Origin: Frankia sp. AgB32
Lineage (GTDB): Bacteria > Actinomycetota > Actinomycetes > Frankiales > Frankiaceae
DNA length: 64,000 bases
Reading direction: 5' to 3'
Assembly (NCBI RefSeq): GCF_023243045.1
Contig: NZ_JALKFX010000006.1
Span: 1 to 64,000, forward strand
The notes beneath the pieces were generated by a model. The model did no database searches. It had not been told where the DNA came from and was given only the letters and a program-made list of their open reading frames with translations. The number at the start of each line of letters is the position of its first letter. Position 1 is the first letter of the stretch. Positions 2,103 to 13,350 of this stretch are shown here, one piece after another. The position numbers and the translations under genes were made by a program.

Positions 2103-2421
2103 ACCTGTCCAAGGAGGGAGGCCGCAGGGGCTGGTCCGTTGCCGCCCGCCATTATTCCATCCGGCCTGCTCACTGGTGCACCATCCTCGTGTCGGAACTC
2201 GTAAATGGGAGAGTTCGGACACGCCCCTGGTCCCCACCGGGCCATCGCCCTGCTCGCTCGACCGTCAAGGTCCGGCATGAGTTCCGCGAGGCCCGGTGGC
2301 CCAGGACACCCCGACTGGCTACAGGGCTGCGCGCCGGAGAGCGCCGATCAGTGAGCGACCGGCTGCGGTGTCCCGGGACCACCGGGTGTCTTCCCACTGG
2401 TGGAGCAGCGAGGAGACACAC

Positions 2422-2892
2422 GTGAGTATCGACCCGATCCCGGCGCCGCGTGTCTGCGCCGGAGTGGACTGGGCCAAAGGCGACCACGCGGTGGCGGTCG
2501 TGGACGCCGACGGCGAGGTCCTCGACCGGTTCGCGGTCTCCCACGACGCCGCCGGGCCGAGGAACATGGTCAAGCGGCTGCTCAGACGCGGCGTGACCGA
2601 GGTCGGGATCGAACGCCCCGACGGGCCGGTCGTCGCGGCGCTGCGCCAGGCCGGGCTGACGGTGTTCGTGATCCCACCCGGCCAGTTGAAGAACCTGCGG
2701 TCCCGCTCCGGGTCGGCGGGGAACAAGGACGACCGGTTCGACGCCTACGTCCTGGCCGACGTGGTGCGCACCGACCGGCGCCGGTTGCGCCCGCTCGTGA
2801 GCGACAGCGCGGCCACCACCGCACTGCGCCGCAGTGTCCGCGCCCGCCGGGACCTCGTCGCCCACCGGGTCGCGGTCGCCAACCAGCTGCGC
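2422..2892 (+). pseudogene. IS110-family transposase, N-terminal half only
   Basis: GTG start at 2422 with AGGAG at 2411-2415. The product begins VSIDPIPAPRVCAGVDWAKG and holds the DEDD-type catalytic domain of IS110 transposases: D in GVDW, E in GIERPDGP and the DDRFDAYVLAD block. Homology stops after VAVANQLRA, where a complete protein would continue for about 250 more residues with the transposase_20 domain and its essential Ser. The downstream sequence is unrelated. The copy is truncated and should be inactive. Confidence 0.85.
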
Positions 2893-3209
2893 GCTTGCGA
2901 TCCCTCCAGGGATGATCAGCGACCCGATAGGTCGAGTACCCCACCGATTTTTCCGTGGCCCACGTTTTCCCCGGCTCGCCGGGTCCGCGACCGTTACAGA
3001 AGCGTCGGCCATGGCGGCGGTCTACTTGATCTGATGCGCCCGGATCTCCGGCCGGTTCCTCCGGCGACCCGGCAGCGCTTGCGGTCCAGGCGCCTACCTC
3101 GAGGCGGCTGCCGACGGGTCGCCGTGGACAGGGCGTGGATGAGCGGAACTACTCCGCCGACTCCCGAGACATCACCGCAGCTCACAGCATATGTTGATCT
3201 TCGGGAACG
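2893..3209. other. Scrambled junction sequence, no gene
   Basis: Sequence between the broken IS110 gene and the acyl-CoA dehydrogenase tail. The IS110 frame runs on as low-complexity Arg/Pro-rich residues to 3258 without any domain. A small inverted pair, CCCTCCAGGG, lies near 2902-2911. No other structure is visible. Confidence 0.4.
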
Positions 3210-3284
3210 AAGGTCATGCAGATCTTCGAAGGCACCAACCAGATCCAGCGCATGGTAATCGCCCGCCACCTCGCCAAGGGCTGA
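3210..3284 (+). pseudogene. Acyl-CoA dehydrogenase, last 24 codons
   Basis: The frame AAG at 3210 to TGA 3282-3284 reads KVMQIFEGTNQIQRMV followed by IARHLAKG and a stop. This is the highly conserved C-terminal signature of acyl-CoA dehydrogenases (the IxEGTxQIQR motif and HLxxG end). Nothing upstream matches the rest of the enzyme, so only the extreme 3' end survives. It shows that the chromosome was cut here, probably together with the IS110 decay, and marks the left edge of the CHAT locus. Confidence 0.85.
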
Positions 3285-3375: not shown

Positions 3376-5664
3376 ATGGTAAGCATGGCAGGCTGTGAGG
3401 TTATGAGCACAGAGGCGCCCGACAGCGTCCCTGGCCGAAGGCTGAGGGAAAGCAAACAGGGCGAGGACGCGACGACGAACGACCACGAGATCGAGATCGC
3501 CTCCCGTAGGATGACCCACCGCGAGATCATCTCAAAAGGCACATTCTGGTCTACGATTCTCTCGCCGCTCATGTTCGCTCTGTTCGCTCGCCGTCCGGAC
3601 GGAGTCGGCGACATTTTCTGGGAGGCCAGGATCGCCTGTGCTGCCCTCATCTCACTCCGCCTTTATGGACAGTACCGGGCAGTCCTCAAGTACACACTGC
3701 CCACCAGACGCAGGATCCGTGACCGCATCGAGCTCCGGTATCTTGTGACGCTGCTCGTCGCCCTGGTGGGACCCGTCAGTGGATGGATCTCCAGCCTGTG
3801 GCTCGCCCTGCCCACCACCGGGACGATCCTGGTTCCGGTGGTGGGCACACTGTTCATGCACTTCTTCGTCGGGCGCCGGAGCGTCCTGCTCGCCGAGTCC
3901 GGCGCCGCCGGGCGCTGGTCTGGCTGCCTCCTCACCGTGCTCATGGCCCCGTTTGGGCTGCTGGCCGCGGACGGCGTGCTCGCGTTTCTGGTCGCCGGGG
4001 TCGCTCAGCCCTCCAGCGAGCTGATGGTCGCCGCGTTCTGCACGTCCTTCGGCGCGCTCCTCGGCTGGGCCTACGAGGACCGCCACGAGGACGGCGTGTT
4101 CGCCCGCCTCTCGGACGCGACCACCGTCGGCAAGCTCCCGAGAAAGGATGCCGTGGCCGCGCTGTCGTTCTGGCTCGAGGACCAGGTGGTCCTGCGCGCG
4201 GGCAGGCCCGACTTCGCCCTGGTTTACTGCCTGGTCGCGGTCGGCGGAATGCCGTTCATGTTCGCCACCGACAAGGGCGACTTCAGGGTCCCGCTGGTCC
4301 GCAAGATGCCGTTGGAAGAGGGGGAGCGGTACCTGCACCTGGCGGAGACCATGCTGGCCATGATCGATCACCTGGCGGCACAGGAGGAGAATTTCGCCTA
4401 CCTCTCGAACGAGCGCACCCTCCAGTTCTGCCGCGCCTCGTTCAACCTCACCAGCGGAATCCGAGCTGAACGGCTCAATCGTCCAGAGGACGCCGCCTCC
4501 GCCTACCGCGCGGCTTCCCAGGCATTCACGTCCGCCGGGATGCCGGAGCACGCCGCGCTGGCGGCAATCTACGTCGGCAGTGCGCTCCTGCGGGGCTACG
4601 ACGCACCCGAGCGCGCCATCGAGAGCCTGCAGGCGATCGCGCACGAGAGTCACACCGGCCTGATGCTCCGATTCGCGCTCGCGTCCGCCGACGTCGGCCG
4701 TCTGCTGCGCGCTGGAGAACCGGACCCGGACCTACGGCAGGAGGTGGCGCATAGGCAGGCCGCCTATCCTGACGTCGAGGACGACATCAGGACGATAACG
4801 GCGGAGCTGCCCCCCGGCCTGTACAGGTTCGGCGGCGTCGTCCTGGCGAAGGCTCTTCCCCAGACCGTACGGCAGCTCGAGGAGGTCATCGTCACCGGCC
4901 ACACGACGACACCGGGCAGGGGACCGGGCTTCAACGGGCTGGTGAAGGTCGCGCGGGCCCACTATGCCACGTTGGAGCGCGCCCAGAAGGCCTACGACGA
5001 CCGTCGGCCCCAGGAGGCGGGGCGGTTGGCAGTCACGGCGCTTCGGGAGGCGGCCGAGTCCAGCGATTCCCAGGTGCTCCTCAGCGCCAGCTTCCTCCTC
5101 GCGCTCCTGGCCGTGCAGGACGGCCGGTGGACCGAGGCACACGACTCCCTAGCAATGATCATCGATTTCGGTGAGCTGCTCAGAGAGCAGAGCCTGAACC
5201 CCGAACGCGGCTCCCCCCGAGAGGACATCGTCCAGCAGGCGGTCACCCTCCTGGTGCTGCTGCTCCTCGGCAGCGGTGCCGGGCCTGACTGGCCGCCGCC
5301 CGACGCCGTTCCCAGGGCGCTGTCCTACATCGAACGATCCCGCTCCCGGACTTTGCTCAGCATGCTCGGCGAGACGGTACGTGTCCCCGCGCCGGAGGGG
5401 CTGGACGCGCTGGCGGCCGACGAGCAGCGAGCCCTGGTGGAGCTCCGGGAGTGTCGCCGCCACCTCGTGGCGCTCGACGGCACCGCCGTCGCCGCCCTGC
5501 CGGCCGTCACCGCCGCCCGACGGGCGGAGAACCGGCTGCGTGCCATAGAGCAACAGATCCGTGAAACAGGCCCTGCGGGCGCGGAGTACCTTGACGTCAG
5601 GCGAGGCACTCCGATCGCCTTCACCGAGATCCAGGACCTGCTACGTGAGAGCGCGGTCAGCTGA
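3376..5664 (+). CDS. Membrane-TPR protein: N-terminal part of a split CHAT protease
   Basis: 762 residues from ATG 3376 (in-frame ATGs at 3385 and 3403 are alternatives). About five hydrophobic segments lie near residues 54-72, 118-165 and 182-235. Helical TPR-like repeats follow (for example ERLNRPEDAASAYRAASQAF) up to about residue 650, then the coiled stretch that normally leads into a CHAT domain (AVTAARRAENRLRAIEQQI). The last residues, TPIAFTEIQDLLRESAVS, match the linker just before the first CHAT strand (typically ...LLP...xVLVEYFV). The ORF stops two codons after an 11-base repeat whose partner lies in the CHAT gene at 8865-8875. I infer that the C-terminal protease domain was separated by inversion of the 5658-8864 segment. 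As it stands the protein has no catalytic domain. Confidence 0.75.
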   Translation: MVSMAGCEVMSTEAPDSVPGRRLRESKQGEDATTNDHEIEIASRRMTHREIISKGTFWSTILSPLMFALFARRPDGVGDIFWEARIACAALISLRLYGQYRAVLKYTLPTRRRIRDRIELRYLVTLLVALVGPVSGWISSLWLALPTTGTILVPVVGTLFMHFFVGRRSVLLAESGAAGRWSGCLLTVLMAPFGLLAADGVLAFLVAGVAQPSSELMVAAFCTSFGALLGWAYEDRHEDGVFARLSDATTVGKLPRKDAVAALSFWLEDQVVLRAGRPDFALVYCLVAVGGMPFMFATDKGDFRVPLVRKMPLEEGERYLHLAETMLAMIDHLAAQEENFAYLSNERTLQFCRASFNLTSGIRAERLNRPEDAASAYRAASQAFTSAGMPEHAALAAIYVGSALLRGYDAPERAIESLQAIAHESHTGLMLRFALASADVGRLLRAGEPDPDLRQEVAHRQAAYPDVEDDIRTITAELPPGLYRFGGVVLAKALPQTVRQLEEVIVTGHTTTPGRGPGFNGLVKVARAHYATLERAQKAYDDRRPQEAGRLAVTALREAAESSDSQVLLSASFLLALLAVQDGRWTEAHDSLAMIIDFGELLREQSLNPERGSPREDIVQQAVTLLVLLLLGSGAGPDWPPPDAVPRALSYIERSRSRTLLSMLGETVRVPAPEGLDALAADEQRALVELRECRRHLVALDGTAVAALPAVTAARRAENRLRAIEQQIRETGPAGAEYLDVRRGTPIAFTEIQDLLRESAVS
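5647..5657 (+). repeat. Left breakpoint repeat of the inverted CHAT segment
   Basis: GAGAGCGCGGT. It matches, at 9 of 11 bases and in inverted orientation, GAGACAGCGGT read on the minus strand from 8875 to 8865; the last five bases (GCGGT) are identical. Both copies are read in the same codon phase (ESAV here, ETAV there). The left copy runs into a perfect 12-base palindrome, GGTCAGCTGACC, at 5655-5666, which holds the stop codons of the two convergent genes. Whether this is a recombinase site or only microhomology cannot be told from one sequence. Confidence 0.6.
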
Positions 5665-7108
5665 CCGGAGTGATCAGCAGCACGCCGCCACCCCTGGCGA
5701 GCGCCGCGACCGTGGTCGCCGGATCGGCACCGCCCACGGCCAGCACCACGGCACCACCGAGCACGTTCAGGACGAGGACGTCGGTGAACGCCCGTGACGG
5801 CGCGTTTCCTCTCGGCTCGAGGAGGGCGGTCGTCCTGGCCCCCCGGTCAACGGCTGCGGCCAGTGTCCCGTCCGGGTCAGGCAGGACGAGCACCCATCGC
5901 CCGGCCAGCTCATGGGGCGGCAGAGCCGGTCCGAGGTCCACGGACGCGATCCGGGCATTGCGGTCGACCGGCCGCAGCAGATAGCGGCCGGCAAAGGCGG
6001 CTCGCCCGTCACCAACCAGATCGTCGACGACGATCTGGTGGTAGGCCGCCAGCGAGCGCCCGGCGCGGACCGGGTCCCGCGGCGGCGAGAGGAGCCCGAC
6101 CGCGGTAACCGCCACCGCCACGACGAGGAACAACGCGACCAGCACAATCCCCGGGTGCAACGGGGCCGCGTTGGCATTCGGCGGGGGAACGGGCGCGGGA
6201 GCCGGCGCGGGACTCGCGCCGGGGTTGCCTGCGACGATGGGGGTGTATCCGAGCGCGGACGCCCGGTCGGTGTCCACCGTGCCCTCCGCCCAGAGCTGGT
6301 CCAGTGCCTCCCACTGCCTACGTTCGGCCGCGAAACTAGTCGCGGGATGCAGACCCATGGTCTCCAGCAGCGTCCTGCGGTGGACGTCGAACGCCGCGCG
6401 GAAAAGCTGCCCGTAGACGGTCGCCGCGCTCACCGCGGCCCGGTACCCGAGGCCCATCACGGCCACGCCGGCCGCCAGGCACACCAGCGGCCACGGCAAC
6501 GGCAACAGGAAGACGGCGAGCGCGCTGCCCGCAAGAGTGAAGACCGCGCCCAGCCCACAGAGGGCGACAGCCTGCTCCAGTCCCGCGTTCGCCGAGGCAA
6601 AGGCCTGCTGGAATGCCTCGGGAAGCACCGGGTAAAGGCGAGGCCAGGCCGTCACTCCGTCGATACGGTAACGGCCGCGGGGGTGGACCTCGGCTCCGCG
6701 CAGGACGTTACCGAACGTCGTCGGCATGACGAACGCGTCAACGACCGGATAGTCGCGGAACCGCACCGGGTTCTGGTTCCGCATGTTCCGCTGCCTGCTC
6801 GCGCCGCGCCTTCCCAGCCAGCCGCCCCCCGGCAGCCCATCCCAGTAGCCCTCCAACAGCCTGATGAACCCCGGCCGCACGGCGGCGGTGAGCTGGCTGC
6901 CCGCGAGCACCAGGACGATCGCAGCGCACAGGAGGCCGGTCTTGGCCTCGGGACTCAGCCCCCGCCAGTGCCGCCATGACTCCGCCCAACCCGTACCGCA
7001 CAGGACTACCAGCCCGAACGCGGAGGCAAGCCCGAGGACCGGCAAAAGGGTCGCGACCAGCCACCGCCGGCTGATCAGCCCGGTAACGGTTTCCACGAGG
7101 CCGCCCAC
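5657..7108 (-). CDS. Membrane protein with C-terminal SAF-like domain
   Basis: 483 residues from GTG 7108, one base after the stop of the preceding gene and behind GGGAG. Hydrophobic segments lie near residues 16-38, 57-76, 182-235 (two) and 319-341. A Pro/Ala linker (about 297-316) precedes the last one. After it a roughly 140-residue outer domain resembles SAF/CpaB-type domains: AAYHQIVVDDLVGDG, RYLLRPVDRNARIASVDLGP. The central part has an unidentified cytosolic loop (about 80-175). It is the third gene of the minus-strand set CHAT, CBS/zinc, SAF; tight spacing argues for one operon. Its stop lies in the palindrome shared with the convergent TPR gene. The function is unknown; a membrane partner of the CHAT protein is inferred from context. 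Confidence 0.7.
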   Translation of the reverse strand: MGGLVETVTGLISRRWLVATLLPVLGLASAFGLVVLCGTGWAESWRHWRGLSPEAKTGLLCAAIVLVLAGSQLTAAVRPGFIRLLEGYWDGLPGGGWLGRRGASRQRNMRNQNPVRFRDYPVVDAFVMPTTFGNVLRGAEVHPRGRYRIDGVTAWPRLYPVLPEAFQQAFASANAGLEQAVALCGLGAVFTLAGSALAVFLLPLPWPLVCLAAGVAVMGLGYRAAVSAATVYGQLFRAAFDVHRRTLLETMGLHPATSFAAERRQWEALDQLWAEGTVDTDRASALGYTPIVAGNPGASPAPAPAPVPPPNANAAPLHPGIVLVALFLVVAVAVTAVGLLSPPRDPVRAGRSLAAYHQIVVDDLVGDGRAAFAGRYLLRPVDRNARIASVDLGPALPPHELAGRWVLVLPDPDGTLAAAVDRGARTTALLEPRGNAPSRAFTDVLVLNVLGGAVVLAVGGADPATTVAALARGGGVLLITPVS

Positions 7109-7109
7109 G

Positions 7110-7622
7110 TCACTCCCAGAACGCGACAAAGAGGTGGTCGCCGCCCTGACAGACACCCGGGTCCTCAGGAAAGCCATGCGGGAAGACGTTCGGGGTACCA
7201 CAGACATGGCACTGGACCCTGCTGGGTCTCCGTTCACCAGGCCGATCACCATGTGGCTTGTGGTCGGTGTGCAGGGTGTAGGCGCCGCGATCCAGCAAGC
7301 TGCGCTCGACCGCGGGAAGTAGACGGTCAGCGTGGACCAGGCCCACCGTGCGCGCCCGCTCGCCACGGACGGCGACCAACGCCGGTATCCCGCCTGCCAG
7401 CGCGTCCAGCAGAACGCCATCGAGCACGGCTGCCTCGACCTGGCGTCCGGCATCGACCAGGACAGCCGGCCACGCACCTTTGGCACCGACAAGCCCCGCG
7501 GGCTCACCCGAGGAGTCGATGAGAACACCAAGAGCATCGGAATTCCGCGCCAGGACTACCCGGATGTCGCTCAGAGTACTCGCCATCACCTCAACCGGGG
7601 ACATCAGATCCTTGATCAGCAT
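7110..7622 (-). CDS. CBS-like protein with C-terminal zinc-ribbon-like motif
   Basis: 170 residues, ATG 7622 preceded by GGAGG, 14 bases after the CHAT stop. The N-terminal 110 residues look like a weak CBS-domain pair: KDLMSPVEVM opens as CBS domains do, and ALGVLIDSSGEPAGLV and PALVAVRGERARTVGLV match the strand-turn-strand of each half. The last 35 residues contain CHVCGTPNVFPHG, a further Cys in GVCQGGDH and several His, fitting a small metal-binding ribbon. CBS pairs bind adenine nucleotides, so this could be the sensor of the system. That role is inference. An ORF in another frame (to 7537) is a shadow. Confidence 0.65.
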   Translation of the reverse strand: MLIKDLMSPVEVMASTLSDIRVVLARNSDALGVLIDSSGEPAGLVGAKGAWPAVLVDAGRQVEAAVLDGVLLDALAGGIPALVAVRGERARTVGLVHADRLLPAVERSLLDRGAYTLHTDHKPHGDRPGERRPSRVQCHVCGTPNVFPHGFPEDPGVCQGGDHLFVAFWE

Positions 7623-7636
7623 GGCATCCTCCGTTT

Positions 7637-8944
7637 CTACAGCCAGTCACCTGACAGGAAGAAGGGAGCCCAGAAGCGGGGGTCGGCGAAGGGACAGCCC
7701 GGGGCGGCCCGCAGACCGCCCAACTGAGCGGTGACGCGAATCTGCCGAACACGTGACTCGGCGCGCTCGCGGCGCGCCGAGGACACCGCCGGGCTCGCAG
7801 CCACGGCACGGTACCGCTCCAGCGCGGCTCCGGGATTGCCGGAGGCGGCGTGAAGCCACGCCTCCTGCTCCAGGACAGTCGCCTCCAGGAACGGTTCGCC
7901 CGCGAACTGGTCCCGGCTCGCAGCGACCAGAGCCAGGACGTCGCGGAAGGTCTGGGTGCGCAGCCAGAGCTGAGCGGCGCGCAGGGCCTGCGCCTTGGAG
8001 ACGCCGGACCTGAGCTCGGTGTAGAAACGGGTGAGCAGCAGGCTCGAGGCCAGCTCGTCCACCTGCCACAGGCTCACCAGCGCAGAGGGCGCGCCAGCGT
8101 AGAGAAGGGCCCAGGTCAGGCCGAGCATGTTGTCGCCGGGCAGGTCGGCTCCGATCCCGCTGTCACAGGCTCCCAGCGTGACGAGATCGACGTCAAGGGA
8201 CAGGCTGAGCACATCGGCTGCGGTCAGTCTGCCATCGACCAGTTCCAGGCCTGAACGCATGGGATCGTCAGGATCGAACACCCCGTGGGCCGTGAAGTGC
8301 AGAACGTCGACGCCGCCGTCCGGCTCGGACAGCACGTCCATCAGGTATGCACGCGAGGCACCCCGGCCGGAGACCACCTGCGAGCTGCGGAAAACGTCCG
8401 CGACCAGGAGGCTCTGCATCTGCCCGAGGGCCAACGGACGGTTCTCTGCCGGTCCGGTGACGACCATGACCGACTCCCGTCGCGCCTTGCGCTTGGCCCG
8501 GCAGTAACGCAGGACCGAGGCGCTCGGCACCGTCATCACCGGATTCCGCTCGATCAACGCCGTCCCCTCCACCTGGACCGCCTGCAGCGGAAGCCGGTGC
8601 ATGGCCTGATGCGGCACCAGATAGACCACGTCTTCCGGCCGCGCCCACCGCGCCACCGGCGCCAACAGCCTGGCGAGCCCCCGGTGCTCCAGAGCCGCGG
8701 CCACCTCCCCCGCCGCAACGGCCCGCGCGAGCTCCGCCAACTCGTCGGCACCGACAGCCACGGCAAGCGTCTCGGGGGCCTCCCACTCCGGAGCCACCGC
8801 GACGATGTATGTCTCATCGTCGGTCACGAAGTACTCGACGAGCACCAGACGCGTCATCACACGCACCGCTGTCTCGACGCGGAACTCCCTAAAGTTGCTC
8901 CCTCGCCCAAACCACTCCCCCGTAGGCAGTGGGGCCGACTGCAT
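7637..8944 (-). CDS. CHAT-domain protease, separated from its TPR half
   Basis: 435 residues from ATG 8944; ATG 8857 (MTRLVLVEYF) is an alternative, and neither has a good ribosome binding site. CHAT is a caspase-like Cys protease fold. The catalytic pair is visible: His220 in VLHFTAHG and Cys260 in LVTLGACDSG. The usual strand motifs VYLVPHQAMHRLPLQAV and SLWQVDELA are also present, and the C-terminus carries an extra helical repeat (about 340-420). A normal CHAT protein has TPRs in front; here the gene begins abruptly at VETAVRVMTRLVLVEY. The residues before that (about 1-23) come from unrelated sequence beyond the repeat at 8865-8875. Joining ESAV of the plus-strand TPR gene to RVMTRLVLVEY restores a standard linker in frame. 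Confidence 0.82.
   Translation of the reverse strand: MQSAPLPTGEWFGRGSNFREFRVETAVRVMTRLVLVEYFVTDDETYIVAVAPEWEAPETLAVAVGADELAELARAVAAGEVAAALEHRGLARLLAPVARWARPEDVVYLVPHQAMHRLPLQAVQVEGTALIERNPVMTVPSASVLRYCRAKRKARRESVMVVTGPAENRPLALGQMQSLLVADVFRSSQVVSGRGASRAYLMDVLSEPDGGVDVLHFTAHGVFDPDDPMRSGLELVDGRLTAADVLSLSLDVDLVTLGACDSGIGADLPGDNMLGLTWALLYAGAPSALVSLWQVDELASSLLLTRFYTELRSGVSKAQALRAAQLWLRTQTFRDVLALVAASRDQFAGEPFLEATVLEQEAWLHAASGNPGAALERYRAVAASPAVSSARRERAESRVRQIRVTAQLGGLRAAPGCPFADPRFWAPFFLSGDWL
8865..8875 (-). repeat. Right breakpoint repeat of the inverted CHAT segment
   Basis: On the minus strand this reads GAGACAGCGGT, the inverted, 9-of-11 partner of the repeat at 5647-5657. The bases to its left (on the plus strand) belong to the CHAT domain. 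The bases to its right do not resemble any part of a CHAT/TPR protein and would be the original 3' flank of the SAF gene in the unflipped arrangement. Confidence 0.6.
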
Positions 8945-9391: not shown

Positions 9392-10441
9392 TCACCGAGA
9401 GGCTCGTACCCGCTTTTCGACCCCTTGCCGATTGAGGGTGTGGCCGGTCTGCCAGACGGCGTGGGCGGCGGTCAGTTTGGTGGTGAGCTTGTCCAGGAGT
9501 GCGGCCTCGGCGACAGGGGATTCGGTGTGGCTGGTAATCAGTTTGGTGTAGCGGACGGTGTCGACGATCGCCGACTTGACCCGCTCGTGGGCGAGGTACG
9601 TCGTGAGGTCGGCGGTCCACTCGATGGCGGCCTCGGCGGGGACGGCGGCGCGCCAGGCAGTGCGGGCGGCGTTTTCTTCGTCGGGTTGGTAGGCCATCTT
9701 GTGGAGGTGCACGGCGAGGTCGTAGACGGGGTCGCCCCAGAGGGCGAGTTCCCAGTCGAGGAAGTAGGTCGCACCCGCACAGATGATCATGTTCTTGCGG
9801 TGGATGTCGGTGTGGAGGAGCCGGAATGGTCTGGGAGAGAGGGTCTGCCAGCGTTCGAGGATGGGCTCACATGGGTCTGCGGGGAAGGCGAGGGAGGAGA
9901 ACAGGTCGCCAAACTCGTCGCGGAACCGTGTATACACGTCGATGGTGACAGCGGAGAGCCGATGAGCGAAGGTGGCCGTGTCACTGTCGGTGGGCCAGTC
10001 TTCTGGCAGCGTCGGTAGCTGGTCGAGGGGAACCTGGCCGAGCTGGCGGAACAGTTCGCCGACATCCGGGATCACATGGTCCGGAACCCGCTTCTTCCGC
10101 GGTGCCACCGCGTCGAGTACCTCGCCGGTGATGAACTCGACCACCTGGTAGGCGGGGTCCGCGTTGGCGTGGAGCAGCCGCGGCACCCGAGCGACGGCAG
10201 GGCTGATCGCCTGGACGACGCCGGCCTCGGGCCAGATCGTCAGATCCATGGTGTCCGTGCCGGGGATCGGGATCCGGACGACGACCGGTCCTTCTCGGGT
10301 CTCGACCCGCACGTTGTGGTTGTAGAAGCCGGCGCTTCGGTCGGTCCGGGCCAGAGCCATGCGGTACAGACCGTCAGGATCGCCGGTCGTGGCCGCGCGG
10401 GCCTCACCGGCTGGCGGGTTCGCGGACTCGGGGAGGGTCAT
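9392..10441 (-). CDS. APH-fold (aminoglycoside phosphotransferase-like) kinase
   Basis: 349 residues. The protein kinase-like APH fold is shown by the Brenner-type motif HTDIHRKN (His210, catalytic Asp212, Asn217) and the metal-binding FLDWELALWGDP (Asp229). The N-lobe strand VVVRIPIPG replaces the usual AVxK with Arg. The substrate is unknown; members act on antibiotics, choline, homoserine or other small molecules. The ATG at 10441 overlaps the TGA of the upstream STAND gene (ATGA at 10438-10441), so the two are translationally coupled. That makes a role as effector or partner of the STAND protein more likely than simple drug resistance. This is inference. Confidence 0.82.
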   Translation of the reverse strand: MTLPESANPPAGEARAATTGDPDGLYRMALARTDRSAGFYNHNVRVETREGPVVVRIPIPGTDTMDLTIWPEAGVVQAISPAVARVPRLLHANADPAYQVVEFITGEVLDAVAPRKKRVPDHVIPDVGELFRQLGQVPLDQLPTLPEDWPTDSDTATFAHRLSAVTIDVYTRFRDEFGDLFSSLAFPADPCEPILERWQTLSPRPFRLLHTDIHRKNMIICAGATYFLDWELALWGDPVYDLAVHLHKMAYQPDEENAARTAWRAAVPAEAAIEWTADLTTYLAHERVKSAIVDTVRYTKLITSHTESPVAEAALLDKLTTKLTAAHAVWQTGHTLNRQGVEKRVRASR

Positions 10442-13005
10442 CGGGTGGCCTCGCCGAGGCCGAGCAGGTCGCGGGCGAACACGTCGATACGGCCCTTCAC
10501 ATCGTCAAGTGTCGTGAGCGGCTGGATGGCGCGCTCGGCGCGCTGGCAGGCCTGCGTCACGGCCTCGTCCTCGATACCCAGTTCCCGCAGCGTGATGCCG
10601 GCGGCCAGTATCAGCGTCGGATACACCTCCGCGGCCTCCAACTCGCTCACCGCCCACCGCACGGATGTCTGAGCGAGGTCACGCCGGCCGCGTCGGACTT
10701 CCAGTGCCGCCCGGTACAGCCTGGCGCGGGCAAGCCCGGAACGGTAGCTTGCCCGGGTTAACGCTTCGACCGCGTCGCTGAGGGCGGCCTCGGCGTGGTC
10801 AAGGCGGCCTAGCCGCAGCGATGCGACGGCGATGGCCGTGTGGCACTTGCCGAGTTCGTGCTGAGCGCCGATCTCGGTCTGGACCTCGATGGCAGCCCTC
10901 GCCTCGGTGAGTGCCGCCTCCGGGTCGGTGAAGGCGAGCAGTTCGGCCCGGTTGGTTCTGATGTTGGCGTTGCCGAGGTACGACCGGGCCGTCTGGTAGT
11001 AGGTCGCGGCCTCGTCCAGGAGGCGCCCGGAGGTGGCGAAGTCGAAGGCGAACCGGTGGGCGAGGTGGCGCAGCCGGGCGACATCCCCGCGGGCCTCGGG
11101 GTGTCGCCGCGCGGCGATCGTGTCGAGTTCGGTCGCGAACCGTTCGGCGTCGACGAAACGGCCCTGGCACATGTGCAGGTCGGCCGCCCACAGGCCGGCG
11201 CCCATCCGGGCGGTGTCGTCGTGGCCGTTCCATACCTCGTTGTAGAGCGTCAGCGCTTCGGACGTACGTCCGGCGATGCGGCGTGCCTGGCCAGCCGCGA
11301 CGGCGAATCGGGCGCCGACTGTGGTGCTGGTGTTCCATGCCTCGTCGGGCGTCAGTTCCAGCGCCTTGGTGGCCTCGCCGCTGCGCAGCACCGCCTCGAC
11401 GTCGAGCACCTGGGCGGTCTGCGTCAGCTCGGGTGTGGCTTTGGCTGGGTGGTCGCGCATGAACTCGCGCAGGTCGGCCAGCACCCCTCCGGCAGCGCTC
11501 TCGGAACCGCCGCGGACCGCGACTTCGACCAGGTCGAGTAGTTCCGTCCCGGTCACCTCTCCGATGGGAAACGCATGGAAGACCATTTCCCGGAACGCGA
11601 CCGGGTCCGCCAACATCCGTCCGTGCACCGCCCGGGAAGACTCCTGGCTGGTGATGTCGCCATCCTCGGGATCCTCGAAGGCCCGCTGTCTCCAGGTGTC
11701 ATGCAGGAGCCGGTGCAGCTCGAGGCGGGCCGGTTCCGACAGCCGGTCGCGCAGCGCCTCCGCCATGAGCTGATGGAAACGTAACTGCTCACCCGCCGGG
11801 TAGACGAAGGAGTACGACGAGATCGACTCCCAGGCCGTCACATGACCTGGCAACTGCAGCGCGGCCGTCAACGCCCGGAAGACCTTCAGATCGAAGATCC
11901 TTGCCACTCCGAGCACCTCGAGTGTCCGGACCTCGTCGGGACCGACATGCTGGAGGAAGCGTTGCAGGATCTCCCGCTGGGTCGCTGCGGCCCGTGCCAG
12001 GCGCCGTCCGGTGGCGTCGCCTTCAGTGCCAGAGCCACTGGTGTCGACCGCGAGGTGCAGATAGAACGGAAGCCCAGCGCTCGCCGCCGCCAGCCGCAGC
12101 CGTTCGTCCTCCTCGGCGATCCCGGATGAGCCGAGCAGCGCCATGCGCGCCTCCATCGGCAGCCCGCCGATGGTGCAGGTGTCGATGAGTCCGCGCCAGT
12201 CGGCGTCGTACACGTCCCAGCGCAGCGGCTCCCTCCCCGCGATCACGACCAGCCCGCGGTCAAGCTGAGCTATCAGGTCCCGCAGCCAGACGTCCGCGAG
12301 CTGGGTGCGCCCCGAGCGCGTCGGTTCCGGGACCAACGCCTCGTAGGTGTCGATCGTCAGCACGTAGGGACGGGTCTCCGATGCGGCCCGCAGATCCTCG
12401 GCGAACAGGAAGGTCACGGCGTCGACGACCTCGGCGTTCGGAAGGTCGTCGAGCGATGACAACGTTTCGTCGTGGCGGATGCGGTACCGACGGCGGGCAT
12501 CGGACGTCGCCTTCTCAGCGGCCTTGAGCAGACCGAGAGCCGTGCCGAACACCGGTAGCCCGGCGACCGAGTCGACGATTTCCATGAGGATCCCGCTCTC
12601 CTCGACGAACGGCAACGTCTCCCGACTGATCCGCAGGTGCGGGTGAATTCGTTGCCACAACACCGCGTAGGCGAGGTCGAACCGATCAAACCGCACACCC
12701 TGCCCGCCCAACTCGGCGCGCAGCACCGCGAGAGCGTCCTCCTGTTGCCGCATCGCCGGCACCTGAAGATCCAATGATGCCGTCCGCCAGCCCTCCGGCG
12801 CCCGAACCCGCAGCTCCCGCAACAGCCGCGACTTCCCGATTCCCCCGACGCCCGTCACGTTGAAAACCCGCGGGGACGAGGTGCTGTCGGTGAGTGCGGC
12901 CCGAACCTGATCGATCTCCCCCGCGAACGCCTCCAGCAGCGGTGCCCGATCCACGAACTCCCGCTGAAGGGCCGCAACCCGACGAAACCGCGGCGTGATC
13001 GCCAT
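10438..13005 (-). CDS. STAND-type P-loop NTPase with TPR repeats
   Basis: 855 residues. The start at ATG 13005 is set by GGAGG seven bases upstream and by the domain start; the frame stays open to 13263 only because it runs into an ISAs1 remnant. Residues 52-59 are the Walker A GVGGIGKS, and YVLTIDTYEAL fits the Walker B region. After the NTPase come winged-helix-like segments (VLGVARIFDLKVFRAL), then TPR-like helices from about residue 500 to the end (ALTLYNEVWNG, AEAALSDAVEALTRASY). STAND proteins are sensor switches in regulation and phage defence: target binding on the repeats opens the NTPase and activates an effector. No effector domain is fused here; the overlapping APH-like kinase gene is the obvious candidate. 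Confidence 0.8.
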   Translation of the reverse strand: MAITPRFRRVAALQREFVDRAPLLEAFAGEIDQVRAALTDSTSSPRVFNVTGVGGIGKSRLLRELRVRAPEGWRTASLDLQVPAMRQQEDALAVLRAELGGQGVRFDRFDLAYAVLWQRIHPHLRISRETLPFVEESGILMEIVDSVAGLPVFGTALGLLKAAEKATSDARRRYRIRHDETLSSLDDLPNAEVVDAVTFLFAEDLRAASETRPYVLTIDTYEALVPEPTRSGRTQLADVWLRDLIAQLDRGLVVIAGREPLRWDVYDADWRGLIDTCTIGGLPMEARMALLGSSGIAEEDERLRLAAASAGLPFYLHLAVDTSGSGTEGDATGRRLARAAATQREILQRFLQHVGPDEVRTLEVLGVARIFDLKVFRALTAALQLPGHVTAWESISSYSFVYPAGEQLRFHQLMAEALRDRLSEPARLELHRLLHDTWRQRAFEDPEDGDITSQESSRAVHGRMLADPVAFREMVFHAFPIGEVTGTELLDLVEVAVRGGSESAAGGVLADLREFMRDHPAKATPELTQTAQVLDVEAVLRSGEATKALELTPDEAWNTSTTVGARFAVAAGQARRIAGRTSEALTLYNEVWNGHDDTARMGAGLWAADLHMCQGRFVDAERFATELDTIAARRHPEARGDVARLRHLAHRFAFDFATSGRLLDEAATYYQTARSYLGNANIRTNRAELLAFTDPEAALTEARAAIEVQTEIGAQHELGKCHTAIAVASLRLGRLDHAEAALSDAVEALTRASYRSGLARARLYRAALEVRRGRRDLAQTSVRWAVSELEAAEVYPTLILAAGITLRELGIEDEAVTQACQRAERAIQPLTTLDDVKGRIDVFARDLLGLGEATR

Positions 13006-13149
13006 ACCCCAACCTCCGGCAGCCCGACCGCTCCAGATCGCCCGAGTGACGCTGCGATCGCCCTCCGCATCGAACCATGCCGGTATGCCTTTCTCGGACC
13101 AAAACCTGCAACTCGGCCTCTCCTCGTCACCGGCCCCGACAGCGTCAGG

Positions 13150-13350
13150 TGCGAGCCACAGCGCGTTCGGGGCGGCGGGCCTGGTGACGGGGATCCCTAC
13201 GGCGATGTTCGTGTCGCCGGTCAGGCGTAGGACCGTGATAGCGAGGTTGCGCACGCTGGCCATGACCTGACTCGTGTTGCGGTCCGGATCTGGCCGAGGT
13301 CCTCACCGACGGTGACATCGCGGAGCCGGTGCAGCCGGTTCTCCGCGAGC
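13150..13350 (-). pseudogene. ISAs1-family transposase, C-terminal remnant with frameshift
   Basis: On the minus strand one frame reads RWLAENRLHRLRDVTVGEDL then GQIRTATRV. The neighbouring frame continues MASVRNLAITVLRLTGDTNI, so a one-base shift separates the two near 13264-13270. HxxRDVxxxED...RT and RNLAIxxLRLxGxTNIA are the end signatures of ISAs1 (H-repeat) transposases. After NIA the sequence departs from the family. The second frame is continuous with the STAND gene, which explains the misleadingly long open frame there. Confidence 0.7.

Follow-up and report, generated by a model that had tools for sequence, protein, structure and literature searches.

Separate, convergent genes for the TPR and CHAT parts of a probable two-chain protease in a soil actinobacterium

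The window analysed here is a stretch of 64,000 nucleotides (contig C241, positions 1-64000) from the genome of a soil actinobacterium, which comprises 6.68 Mb in 274 contigs. As shown in Table 1, an ORF for the membrane and TPR half of a TPR-CHAT protein is convergent with an operon of three genes on the minus strand, which encode a stand-alone CHAT protease, a small protein with a Cys/His motif and a membrane protein. The two main ORFs lie exactly where an earlier note on this DNA had placed them. The stop codons of the TPR gene and the last gene of the operon overlap tail-to-tail by 8 bp.

Table 1. Genes and near-repeats of the window, and the corresponding genes of Streptomyces sp. NBC_00158
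Feature	Position	Strand	Remarks
Membrane and TPR half of TPR-CHAT protein	3376..5664	+	ORF, 762 aa
"SAF" membrane protein (name only)	5657..7108	-	483 aa; CHAT operon gene 3
Small protein, C-terminal Cys/His zinc-ribbon-like motif	7110..7622	-	170 aa; CHAT operon gene 2
Stand-alone CHAT (caspase-like) protease, predicted	7637..8944	-	435 aa; Pfam CHAT
Near-repeat copy 1, GAGAGCGCGGT	5647..5657	+	Present; match to copy 2 at chance level
Near-repeat copy 2, GAGACAGCGGT	8865..8875 (8875-8865)	-	Present; no counterpart at the matching NBC_00158 place
NBC_00158 CHAT gene	L032:8987-10216	+	~70% identity to window
NBC_00158 zinc gene	L032:10219-10731		66-71% identity to window
NBC_00158 SAF-like gene	L032:10734-12197	+	66% identity to window protein
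NBC_00158 TPR gene	L032:12181-14382	-	~55% identity to window

The CHAT protein matches Pfam CHAT (PF12770) over residues 92-433 (E=5.4e-49, 167.6 bits against a gathering score of 24), and a profile match to solved TPR-CHAT chains was also obtained (E=3e-14). Its H220 (TAHG) and C260 (GACDSG) are invariant across ten relatives and align with the His and Cys of the TPR-CHAT structures. Its protease activity is predicted. The true start of the gene may be at 8857 (MTRLVLVEYF) rather than at 8944. The open frame is 446 codons long in the window and 422-512 codons in the split CHAT genes. Since these frames are so short, no TPR half is hidden in frame upstream. The TPR and CHAT parts do not form a single polypeptide here; they are two ORFs on opposite strands. 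A scan of genome contigs with the CHAT half gave distant matches only, and each half is present in the window's genome in a single copy. With PADLOC, the sole result for the CHAT half was a weak match to BovA. Csx29 (NCBIfam NF041237) was considered as an identity for the CHAT half and rejected, since its score of 50.7 bits is far under the curated cut-off of 300 and the neighbours are zinc-motif and SAF-like genes, not a type III-E CRISPR system. Upstream of the operon, on the same strand, the window also carries an APH phosphotransferase gene and a gene for a 941-aa ATPase (weak AAA_16) at 9392-13263.

In the 170-aa protein, C138, C141, C158 and H163 are invariant across eight relatives; this C-C-C-H set is consistent with zinc binding. 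Its gene is conserved beside CHAT in both split and fused relatives. A Pfam search found no match for this protein or for the membrane protein encoded next to it. The labels CBS and SAF, which the earlier note had used, thus lack Pfam support, and SAF-like is kept here only as a name.

The 762-aa TPR protein has hydrophobic segments at about residues 120-300 according to hydropathy, in addition to helical repeats. By a linker profile match, its C-terminal end, EYLDVRRGTPIAFTEIQDLLRESAVS, is the pre-CHAT linker. It was correctly noted earlier that this ORF stops where CHAT should begin; in the alignment, the fused relatives continue into CHAT at that point. Just upstream of the TPR gene, an N-terminal fragment of an IS110-type transposase (2296-3258) adjoins the end of an apparent acyl-CoA dehydrogenase gene (named by reading only), forming a rearranged boundary.

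Is this arrangement peculiar to the strain? When the TPR half was searched for in 58 genomes of the relatives set, the window's own genome gave the only match. The genus as a whole thus does not share the locus. A tblastn search of plasmid records retrieved NZ_CP108162.1 of Streptomyces sp. NBC_00158, in which a CHAT half and a convergent TPR half lie on opposite strands. The two CHAT halves are 70-71% identical, and the TPR half is 54.6% identical to its counterpart over 96%. Both TPR proteins end at the same place, LLRESAVS (...TEIQDLLRESAVS in the window and ...AAIRELLRESAVSSPD in NBC_00158), and both CHAT proteins begin ..RLVLVEYFVTDDET. In another genome, G694, the same four genes occur in the same convergent order, with a CHAT identity of 50%. 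Horizontal transfer of the locus is likely, as its closest copies belong to Streptomyces. Between the window and NBC_00158, neither half has stops, and dN/dS (NG86) was 0.35/0.54 for TPR and 0.19/0.58 for CHAT; since dS is near saturation and the TPR dN of 0.35 is high, these rough values indicate constraint and not a precise ratio. The NBC_00158 zinc gene reads in two frames, its start lying in one and its CHVC...H end in the other; the missing annotation would be explained by such a frameshift or error in sequencing.

Other split layouts were also found. G498 has a TPR gene followed in tandem, with a 4-bp overlap, by a separate CHAT gene and then by zinc and SAF-like genes. In G1183, the TPR gene is divergent from CHAT-zinc-SAF. 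In G258, the order on one strand is CHAT-zinc-SAF-TPR, and the TPR protein (1269 aa) ends ...VDEIRRLVG. In G1058, the direction is the same as in G258, and the linker-bearing TPR gene lies further downstream. The TPR proteins paired with the stand-alone CHAT in G258 and G1058 are without N-terminal membrane segments. The TPR C-termini of G498, G1183 and G258 end at the same linker site as those of the window and NBC_00158, and in all seven split loci a linker-bearing TPR gene lies, in any direction, within a few kb of CHAT-zinc-SAF. Two further genes were observed near these loci. In G258, an ORF of 1666 aa (L033:3083-8083) lies upstream of the stand-alone CHAT gene, possibly in the same operon; it combines trypsin-like, CHAT-like, AAA and TPR domains. 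In G498, a second CHAT protein of 990 aa is encoded a few kb upstream of the split pair (L034:13459-16431).

Fused membrane-TPR-CHAT ORFs exist in other actinobacteria, which bears out the proposal that the two ORFs of the window correspond to one TPR-CHAT protein. Fused ORFs encode 1099 aa in G743, 1140 aa in G1015, 1413 aa in G1051 and 1122 aa in G1069, and G1158 has an open frame of 910. Zinc and SAF-like genes lie downstream of the fused ORF in G1015, G1051, G1069 and G1158. The contiguous membrane-TPR-CHAT ORF with downstream zinc and SAF-like genes that the earlier note had suggested looking for in relatives was thus found in G1015 and G1069. G1051 resembles them, with the order TPR-CHAT-zinc-SAF.

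A tree of 23 CHAT domains (support as bootstrap/SH-aLRT) unites the window with NBC_00158 and G694 in one clade (97/92) and places the split G258 as its sister (96/96). Thus, in the gene tree, the split predates the divergence of the window copy from the NBC_00158, G694 and G258 copies. The grouping of all seven split members as a single clade was neither rejected nor shown (AU test, p=0.255). The fused G1158 was placed among the split members, which bears on the number of fissions or re-fusions.

These results make it quite probable that the window encodes a stable split membrane-TPR-CHAT protease, which arose by an old fission at the TPR/CHAT boundary and is kept by purifying selection, and whose chains probably assemble in trans. 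The ancestral pre-CHAT linker would have become the boundary between a gene for a membrane-anchored TPR regulatory chain and a gene for a soluble CHAT protease chain, the presumed direction being fission of a fused gene. The CHAT gene still shares an operon with the zinc and SAF-like genes, just as the fused genes do. The TPR gene has moved and turned between lineages, and in the window's clade it is convergent with the operon. Most probably the two chains bind, and the TPR chain would position or restrain the active site of the CHAT chain in trans; Csx29 offers a parallel in cis. There, signalling runs from the TPR region to the active site of CHAT, and the catalytic loop shifts upon changes in the TPR domain (PMC10028731). 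Single-sequence AlphaFold models of the two halves were poor (mean pLDDT 42.9 and 41.5) and were set aside. That the pair serves at the membrane as a protease for regulated cell suicide or for defence is a guess, made from the family to which it belongs.

The chances are evenly balanced that a clade of actinobacterial CHAT proteases is two-chain, with a separately encoded TPR sensor and a protease that meet in trans at the membrane. If so, two-chain encoding would let the cell set the ratio of sensor to protease and exchange sensors; the TPR partners in G258 and G1058, which have no N-terminal membrane segments, may be compared. The normally fused sensor of a caspase-like protease has remained a gene of its own in different genera and in several gene orders, with the cut at the TPR/CHAT boundary. 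Such natural split pairs would be material for studying how TPR regions activate CHAT proteases.

The split pair resembles the fused actinobacterial TPR-CHAT proteins of G1015, G1069 and G1051 in having TPR, pre-CHAT linker and CHAT parts followed by zinc-motif and SAF-like genes, and its TPR half shares membrane segments with G1015 and G1069. In contrast, the fused proteins come from single ORFs of 1,122-1,413 aa, without a TPR part on the opposite strand. None of the papers found gives a name to the fused TPR-CHAT proteins with zinc and SAF-like genes, and the words CHAT and SAF are absent from an eLife 2020 paper on conflict systems. Like Csx29/TPR-CHAT of type III-E CRISPR (Craspase), the pair combines a TPR regulatory part with a CHAT domain bearing a His-Cys dyad. 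However, Csx29 is a single chain whose activator is Cas7-11 bound to target RNA, whereas the window encodes two chains with membrane segments and has no CRISPR partner in the operon. The encoding of a normally single protein as two ORFs has a parallel in the split-gene transketolase, whose enzyme is reconstituted from two chains (PMC7661550). That enzyme belongs to another family, and reconstitution of the pair in the window is only presumed.

How did the convergent order arise? There is about an even chance that the convergent form goes back to an old inversion, of either the CHAT-zinc-SAF block or the TPR gene, in a fused or tandem ancestor, and was later fixed. Fused and tandem forms both exist, and the genomes with the convergent order are monophyletic; in their sister, G258, the TPR gene points in the other direction. 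However, G258 favours the turning of the TPR gene alone over inversion of the block. A separate TPR gene already lies downstream of the SAF-like gene in G258, so that inverting this TPR gene alone would give the convergent order. The flip of 5658-8864 from a fused ORF, as first suggested, is possible but is neither required nor the simplest route, the nearest outgroup being already split (CHAT-zinc-SAF-TPR). An old inversion is compatible with a stable split pair.

It is improbable that only chance has brought the CHAT and TPR genes together and that each acts in a pathway of its own. Chance neighbours would suit the opposite strand of the TPR gene in the window's clade and its varying position between genomes, but this gene has the linker specific to the region before CHAT and is never more than a few kb from CHAT-zinc-SAF in 7 of the 7 split loci.

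That a fused gene of this strain was inactivated by a single recent inversion, leaving both halves dead, is very unlikely. The IS110 transposase fragment just upstream shows that the region was rearranged, and fused relatives exist, but the split is common to NBC_00158 (55-71% protein identity) and G694, which have the same convergent layout with separate starts. Moreover, both halves are free of stops with dN below dS, and the catalytic residues are intact. The common arrangement refutes local inactivation, barring three independent identical events. Relatives with the same split and separate starts were what the earlier note itself had named as speaking against its reading; they were found, the TPR protein of NBC_00158 even ends at the same place, and the sister G258 is split as well.

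The programmed switch proposed in the same note rested on an 11-base inverted repeat at both ends. The positions and codon phase of the two copies are correct, and direct reading confirmed the join on paper, LRESAV-RVMTRLVLVEYFV. The repeat, however, does not exceed chance. The copies agree in 9 of 11 bases with a longest exact run of 5; among 1000 random pairs of same-size stretches drawn from the window, 66% contained a match of at least 9/11, and 31% contained one in the same phase. Within the 64-kb window, 58 sites agree with the motif at 9/11 bases or better. In NBC_00158, the copy at the TPR end is kept (it codes for RESAV), and the place of the second copy reads TTGGGGCGGTGGG; no repeat exceeding chance was found at the breakpoints in two relatives. 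The suggestion of a recombinase encoded nearby was not borne out either, since a search of the 115-kb contig C241 for resolvase/invertase (PF00239) and tyrosine recombinase (PF00589) found none. The assembly has one orientation of the locus. Two convergent gene pieces that can be joined on paper do recall phase-variable invertible loci, but, unlike invertase-controlled loci, the window has no significant inverted repeats and no invertase nearby, and the orientation is conserved between genera. That a recombinase flips 5658-8864 to turn a fused protease on and off is extremely improbable: the in-phase near-repeat and the in-frame join speak for it, but the same layout is fixed in three divergent genomes, each half has one copy in the genome, and there is no fused form within the supported clade or its sister. 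The claimed invertible protease switch is thus replaced by a probable case of domain fission.

A promoter scan gave nothing useful. A SAF-like profile matched 15 of the 35 genomes of the window's family, and most SAF-like loci examined there have a fused CHAT ORF of about 1,030-1,320 codons just before. The module of CHAT, small gene and SAF-like membrane protein is widespread in two actinobacterial families (L063-L080 and L093-L110), mostly with fused CHAT ORFs.
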